NCBI GenBank assembly: GCA_022711175.1
Contig: JAKLFM010000009.1
Span: 1-64,000 of the forward strand
Source: Bacteroidota bacterium
GTDB taxonomy: Bacteria > Bacteroidota > Bacteroidia > Bacteroidales > UBA4417
DNA: 64,000 nt
Direction of reading: 5' to 3'
Made by a program: the position numbers and the translations under genes. Shown here piece after piece: positions 41,293 to 41,642 of the stretch (within the stretch, counting starts at the first letter, position 1; each line of letters opens with the position of its first letter). The notes below the pieces were generated by a model, which was not told where the DNA came from, did no database searches, and worked only from the letters and a program-made list of their open reading frames with translations.

Positions 41293-41322
41293 CTTGCTCG
41301 TTTGAAAAAAATAGTATCTTTG
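41293..41322 (+). promoter_or_regulatory. Promoter of the tRNA-Leu cluster
   Basis: TTG at 41294-41296 and TATCTTTG at 41315-41322 are 18 bases apart, close to the normal Bacteroidota spacing, and are followed by CACCC. Transcription would begin near 41329, just ahead of the tRNA-like remnant. Confidence 0.6.
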
Positions 41323-41332
41323 CACCCGCTTT

Positions 41333-41415
41333 GCCCAGGTGGTGATTCCGATCCCGATCCCGATAGCTATCGGGACTATCGGGACTATCGGGATGGCAGT
41401 CAAGCTGGCTTGGGT
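41333..41415 (+). pseudogene. tRNA-Leu-like remnant fused to a palindromic repeat
   Basis: GCCCAGGTGGTGA at 41333-41345 is identical to the first 13 bases of the tRNA-Leu(GAG) gene at 41453. After it the tRNA sequence is replaced by a palindromic repeat. CTTGGGT at 41409-41415 can pair with GCCCAGG at 41333-41339 (three G-U pairs), so the ends still form an acceptor-like stem, and the total length is 83 bases against 84 for the intact tRNA. No TTCRA T-loop or anticodon arm remains. Confidence 0.55.
41346..41394. repeat. CCCGATAGCTATCGGG palindromic repeat element
   Basis: The perfect 16-base palindrome CCCGATAGCTATCGGG (41359-41374) is flanked on the left by two further CCGATC words and on the right by two more copies of GGGACTATC. 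It folds into a long hairpin. Its form suggests a dispersed REP-like element, but only this copy is in the window. Confidence 0.75.
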
Positions 41416-41452
41416 TAAAGTAAATTACTCAGAATGCCGTTCTTTTTTTAAT

Positions 41453-41536
41453 GCCCAGGTGGTGAAATTGGTAGACACGCCAGCTTGAGGGGCTGGTGAC
41501 CTTAAGGTTGTGCAAGTTCGAGTCTTGTCCTGGGCA
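41453..41536 (+). tRNA. tRNA-Leu (anticodon GAG)
   Basis: An 84-base cloverleaf with a long variable arm (class II tRNA). The acceptor stem is GCCCAGG/CCTGGGC with discriminator A at 41536; the D arm contains GGTGAAATTGGTAGACAC; the anticodon stem is CCAGC/GCTGG around loop TTGAGGG, anticodon GAG; the variable arm pairs ACCTT/AAGGT; the T arm has TTCGAGT. CCA is not encoded. Reads CUC and CUU codons. Confidence 0.95.
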
Positions 41537-41553
41537 CAAAAAAATCATCATCC

Positions 41554-41637
41554 GCCCGGATGGTGAAATTGGTAGACACGCTGGTTTCAGGGACCAGTGG
41601 CTTTACGGCTGTGCAGGTTCGAGTCCTGTTCCGGGCA
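41554..41637 (+). tRNA. tRNA-Leu (anticodon CAG)
   Basis: An 84-base class II tRNA, 17 bases after the first. The acceptor stem is GCCCGGA/TCCGGGC with discriminator A at 41637; anticodon stem CTGGT/ACCAG around TTCAGGG, anticodon CAG; variable arm after the anticodon stem; T loop TTCGAGT. CCA is not encoded. Reads CUG codons. It is very similar to its neighbour, which suggests tandem duplication. Confidence 0.95.
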
Positions 41638-41642
41638 CTGGA

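Follow-up and report, generated by a model that had tools for sequence, protein, structure and literature searches.

A truncated copy of tRNA-Leu(GAG) with a palindromic hairpin in its D-loop lies upstream of the tRNA-Leu operon in the window, as we call the whole stretch of 64,000 nucleotides of Bacteroidota DNA that was analysed. We consider this leader unit (41333–41415), with a probability of roughly 55%, to be the ORF-less remnant of a SegB-like unit which is associated with GIY-YIG genes and duplicates the ends of tRNA genes. The parts of the unit and its surroundings are listed in Table 1.

Table 1. Leader unit and tRNA-Leu operon in the window.
Feature	Coordinates	Strand	Remarks
tRNA-Leu operon promoter, TTG ... 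TATCTTTG	41302–41322	+	conserved in genus relatives directly 5' of the leader
Truncated tRNA-Leu(GAG) copy, 5' end, bases 1–13 (acceptor 5' strand to D-arm)	41333–41345	+	
Expanded palindromic insert in D-loop	41346–41393	+	stands in place of AAT of the intact tRNA
Further, diverged part of the tRNA copy: remainder of the D-arm, 5' strand and loop of the anticodon arm (TGGTAGACACGCCAGCTTGAGG)	41394–41414	+	alignment
Spacer ahead of the intact tRNA	41415–41452	+	GTTCTTT at 41439–41445; GTTC[TA]TT common to leader-bearing relatives
Intact tRNA-Leu(GAG), from which the duplicate derives	41453–41537	+	ARAGORN; Rfam RF00005, 52.5 bits
Intact tRNA-Leu(CAG)	41554–41638	+	ARAGORN; Rfam RF00005, 52.2 bits

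The promoter elements, TTG at 41302–41304 and TATCTTTG at 41315–41322, match the Bacteroidota-type consensus. The initial annotation had recognized downstream of this promoter the first 13 bases of tRNA-Leu(GAG), followed by a CCCGATAGC palindrome, and both observations were confirmed. The sequence GCCCAGGTGGTGA at the start of the leader is identical in 13/13 positions to 41453–41465, which are bases 1–13 of the intact tRNA. The palindrome TCCCGATAGCTATCGGGA (41358–41375) replaces three D-loop bases of the tRNA copy and forms the core of a 48-bp expanded hairpin; its half-site CCCGATAGC is found at this single place in the window. The left arm of the insert is built from TTCCGA/TCCCGA units and the right arm from three copies of CTATCGGGA, the expansion consisting of repeats of the palindrome arms.

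The segment following the insert was assigned by alignment with the units of three relatives (G004, G005 and G003) and with the intact tRNA. Both flanks of the palindrome are tRNA-derived, the left one by its identity to the intact gene and the right one by way of these three units, and the window duplicate represents a partial tandem copy covering about 38 nt of the tRNA. This alignment rules out CTTGGGT (41409–41415) as the acceptor 3' strand, a role proposed for it originally. It places the segment in the anticodon region, and the corresponding segment of the relatives does not resemble the acceptor strand. The closeness of the 83-base total to the length of a tRNA is a coincidence. Neither ARAGORN nor Rfam RF00005 recognized a tRNA with a full cloverleaf within 41333–41452. 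The unit has the form referred to below as a stub: a partial tRNA copy located immediately upstream of the complete gene, on the same strand, with an 18-mer in place of three D-loop bases. The window carries an expanded version, while the unit of G004 at the tRNA-Leu locus has exactly this form.

Within the genus, the tRNA-Leu locus is empty in four species (G006, G010, G011 and G014), where the same conserved promoter abuts the intact tRNA. The palindrome unit is present in three species, in one of which it is doubled, and the leader is decayed or altered in five. In G004 the unit, 86 bp long, occurs twice in tandem and carries a perfect 18-bp palindrome at the position of the window insert; G005 has one unit with a single mismatch in the palindrome. 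The copy in G003 is decayed and still recognizable; faint or altered traces are found in the leaders of G008, G013, G015 and G001. In relatives, GCCCAGGTGGTGA, the palindrome and TGGTAGACACGCC follow one another at the position of the window leader, and a palindrome ahead of the tRNAs without GCCCAGGTGGTGA was not seen. Empty and occupied states are interspersed on an rpoB tree, in which the row for G010, probably a wrong ORF, was disregarded. Such a distribution would result either from recurrent precise loss, with the direct repeats of 13 bp recombining, or from recurrent gain.

The initial annotation interpreted the leader as a third tRNA-Leu gene invaded by a repeat. The tRNA copy with a repeat is indeed seen in relatives, but as a partial duplicate and not as a full third tRNA. 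The comparison with close relatives, which had been suggested as a check, revealed the four empty sites, and an intact third tRNA-Leu was found at the leader position in none of the close relatives examined. That a complete third tRNA-Leu was once present, into which the palindrome inserted and from which the 3' half disappeared, is improbable. Full-length copies do occur, as downstream of the operon in G004 there are two additional, almost complete tRNA-Leu(CAG) copies that have the palindrome in the D-arm. However, the G004 and G005 units at the tRNA-Leu position do not extend beyond the anticodon region, and among the matches listed in the survey described below, the majority of units from the phylum reach no further than the D-arm.

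The other original suggestion was a structured leader RNA, which would mimic the tRNA ends and aid processing of the two tRNAs; a functional RNA of this kind might also serve antitermination of the operon. The leader alone folds strongly (z = −2.8), mainly through the palindrome. The GTTCTTT element, presumably boxA-like, is shared by leader-bearing relatives ahead of the intact tRNA, and a pseudo-tRNA-Lys leader is 96% alike between the window's genome (G000) and G004. Nevertheless, we regard such a role as very improbable. With four species lacking the tRNA-Leu copy and five having it decayed or altered, it is not conserved between species, which makes a needed leader function unlikely; the acceptor mimicry is not conserved either. 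In addition, static structure prediction for the window precursor, from which co-transcriptional folding could differ, has the fragment pair with the acceptor 3' strand of the real tRNA and disturb its fold by competing with the acceptor stem.

The perfect palindrome occurs in 12 copies in G000 and in 24 in G004, while many relatives have none. Five of the 12 copies in G000 have a tRNA gene at a distance of no more than 350 bp, which is far above expectation (under random placement, P is about 5e-8; with placement limited to roughly 1/8 of the genome as intergenic, about 1e-3). Analysis of all tRNAs in G000 and G004 revealed partial copies at the genes for Leu, Lys, Thr, Val, Ser, Met, Asn, Arg and others, often in tandem. 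Copies of 5' ends are located upstream and copies of 3' ends downstream of the tRNA, on the same strand, and their D-, anticodon- or T-arms are swapped for TCCCGA...TCGGGA hairpins. An integrase-type attachment site is not favoured, because the duplications, with unit lengths of about 50–110 bp, involve both the 5' and the 3' ends of tRNAs.

A tandem array of six 112-bp units lies downstream of tRNA-Asn in G004 (C7 5000–7500, L069), each unit containing the tRNA 3' end, a palindrome in the T-loop and a terminator-like hairpin. Other defective tRNA copies carry a second type of hairpin (TCCGTCT..AGACGGA and similar) in the variable or anticodon arms (L067 and L147 in G004, L122 in G000, L193 in G017). 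Stubs can mislead tRNA annotation; some of those in G004 and G017 were called as tRNAs by ARAGORN.

To survey the pattern of D-stem plus palindrome, we scanned the genomes of 84,980 species; the matches listed are a sample, and most of them are from Bacteroidota. Among the 91 listed matches, 47 are located no more than 600 bp from a tRNA, in every case in the orientation of that tRNA. Of the 78 cases scored among the matches listed, 76 have exactly three tRNA bases swapped for the 18-mer, including all 12 cases identified without choosing flanks. Such an 18-for-3 exchange gives a strong hint of a mechanism of insertion or repair that has not been described. Most of the stubs among the matches listed, including that of the window, contain no ORF.

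In several species of Flavobacteriaceae and Algoriphagus (L215, L218, L221, L224, L251 and others), GGTCATCCCGATAGCTATCGGGA recurs in similar surroundings outside tRNAs, which may represent a conserved leader or the end of a gene. Spread of the unit by viruses was considered and rejected, as only six viral contigs match the pattern and most look like chance. The exceptions are two identical contigs (L389, L392) with an apparent tRNA-Met carrying TCCCGATAGCTATCGGGA in the D-arm, in which ARAGORN called no tRNA.

At several stub loci, the stub is separated from the intact tRNA by DNA containing an ORF of about 90 residues with a GIY-YIG domain. Of the 47 small GIY-YIG genes in 20 genomes, 29 are located at a tRNA or tRNA fragment as compared with about 1% expected, a count made by hand from tables in which five of the genes belong to one tandem array. 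The association clusters on the GIY-YIG tree, with 6 changes versus 17.9 when shuffled, although some rows labelled ‘none’ are in fact located at tRNA fragments. Over the 20 genomes, the numbers of palindromes and GIY-YIG genes show a moderate correlation (rho 0.62, kinship ignored), and some genomes have many palindromes with only one or two small GIY-YIG genes. NCBIfam has no specific name for these proteins. On the window's contig (C212) there is no GIY-YIG match, and such a gene was found at the tRNA-Leu locus neither in the window nor in any same-genus relative examined. As the window unit has no GIY-YIG gene, its link to this family is indirect.

The window's genome carries an 85-residue GIY-YIG ORF at its tRNA-Val locus (C158 15879–16790; L118, L354). 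The order there is a stub with palindromes in the D- and anticodon arms, an intact tRNA-Val(tac), a 3' tRNA fragment, the GIY-YIG ORF, another stub and tRNA-Val(cac). In G004 (C13 72900–75900, L363), at least five GIY-YIG ORFs in tandem alternate with tRNA-Val fragments, the arms of which are TCCCGA hairpins.

The palindrome is also found far from tRNAs, in 7-bp tandem repeats (such as GTGA[pal]GTGA and GTCA[pal]GTCA) and in terminator-like hairpin loops. Within 7-bp tandem repeats it again appears as NNNN[pal]NNNN, as though three bases were replaced (L226, L229, L241, L253, L257, L260 and L278, also in G009 and G004).

Because of these copies away from tRNAs, the palindrome may move independently. 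It could be a mobile or slippage-made element favouring hairpin loops and tandem repeats and tolerated, at tRNA genes, only in the spare partial copies which ordinary tandem duplication provides, the GIY-YIG genes being separate passengers. The lack of an ORF in most stubs would agree with this, and the polarity would be explained by tandem duplication alone, which always spares one intact copy. We nevertheless consider this explanation, the main alternative, rather unlikely, as it accounts neither for the formation of partial copies at so many tRNAs nor for the position of the 29 GIY-YIG genes beside hairpin-bearing stubs.

We prefer to view the leader as a relic of a GIY-YIG-associated unit. 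A free-standing homing-type endonuclease of this family would cut tRNA genes, and recombinational repair would regenerate one tRNA and leave a defective stub behind. Stubs might then be multiplied or deleted by further cutting or by unequal recombination. Small nucleases related to SegB would act on bacterial tRNA genes, the window unit being one of the resulting stubs without an ORF. The pattern of scars suggests a parasite of tRNA genes that has attracted little attention. A more far-reaching proposal, which we make tentatively and at clearly less than even odds, is that a family of minimal mobile elements parasitizes tRNA genes throughout the phylum. Their free-standing GIY-YIG nucleases would cut tRNA genes, and the element would survive through regeneration of the intact tRNA, leaving hairpin-bearing stubs with a strict 18-for-3 replacement in the D- or T-loop; the stubs, lacking an ORF, would be multiplied in trans. 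If this is true, tiny GIY-YIG elements target tRNA genes again and again across an entire phylum, the stubs are readable scars of past events, and the tandem defective tRNAs are explained. The open-licence papers that we searched gave no account of GIY-YIG genes with tRNA stubs in Bacteroidota, and the window feature is one case of a wider pattern for which this literature yielded no description.

Short repeats of several kinds invite comparison. Cyanobacterial small dispersed repeats are reportedly very short and insert into tandem repeats and structured RNAs. They resemble the present palindromes in being very short and interspersed, differ in sequence and phylum, and are not known to be tied to duplicated tRNA ends or GIY-YIG genes. 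Rickettsia palindromic elements are palindromic repeats inside genes as well, but longer and mostly in-frame in protein genes, and their sequence is not known to be related to TCCCGATAGCTATCGGGA. REP and REPIN sequences are short palindromes interspersed in bacterial chromosomes (PMC3116915, PMC3733652). They lie mostly outside genes, have tagged ends and are associated with RAYT transposases, whereas the palindrome of the window resides inside a tRNA copy.

Among characterized systems the nearest is SegB of phages T4 and T6, a free-standing GIY-YIG homing endonuclease which acts at tRNA genes and leads to tandem amplification of a unit of tRNA and segB (PMC2988022, PMC13096335). SegB is not known to be accompanied by palindromic hairpins in tRNA arms. 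It further belongs to a phage, whereas the Bacteroidota units are chromosomal and that of the window has no gene. The likeness to SegB lies in the small GIY-YIG gene adjoining tRNA genes at the Bacteroidota stub loci, which, if our interpretation is correct, would represent a chromosomal counterpart of the phage system.
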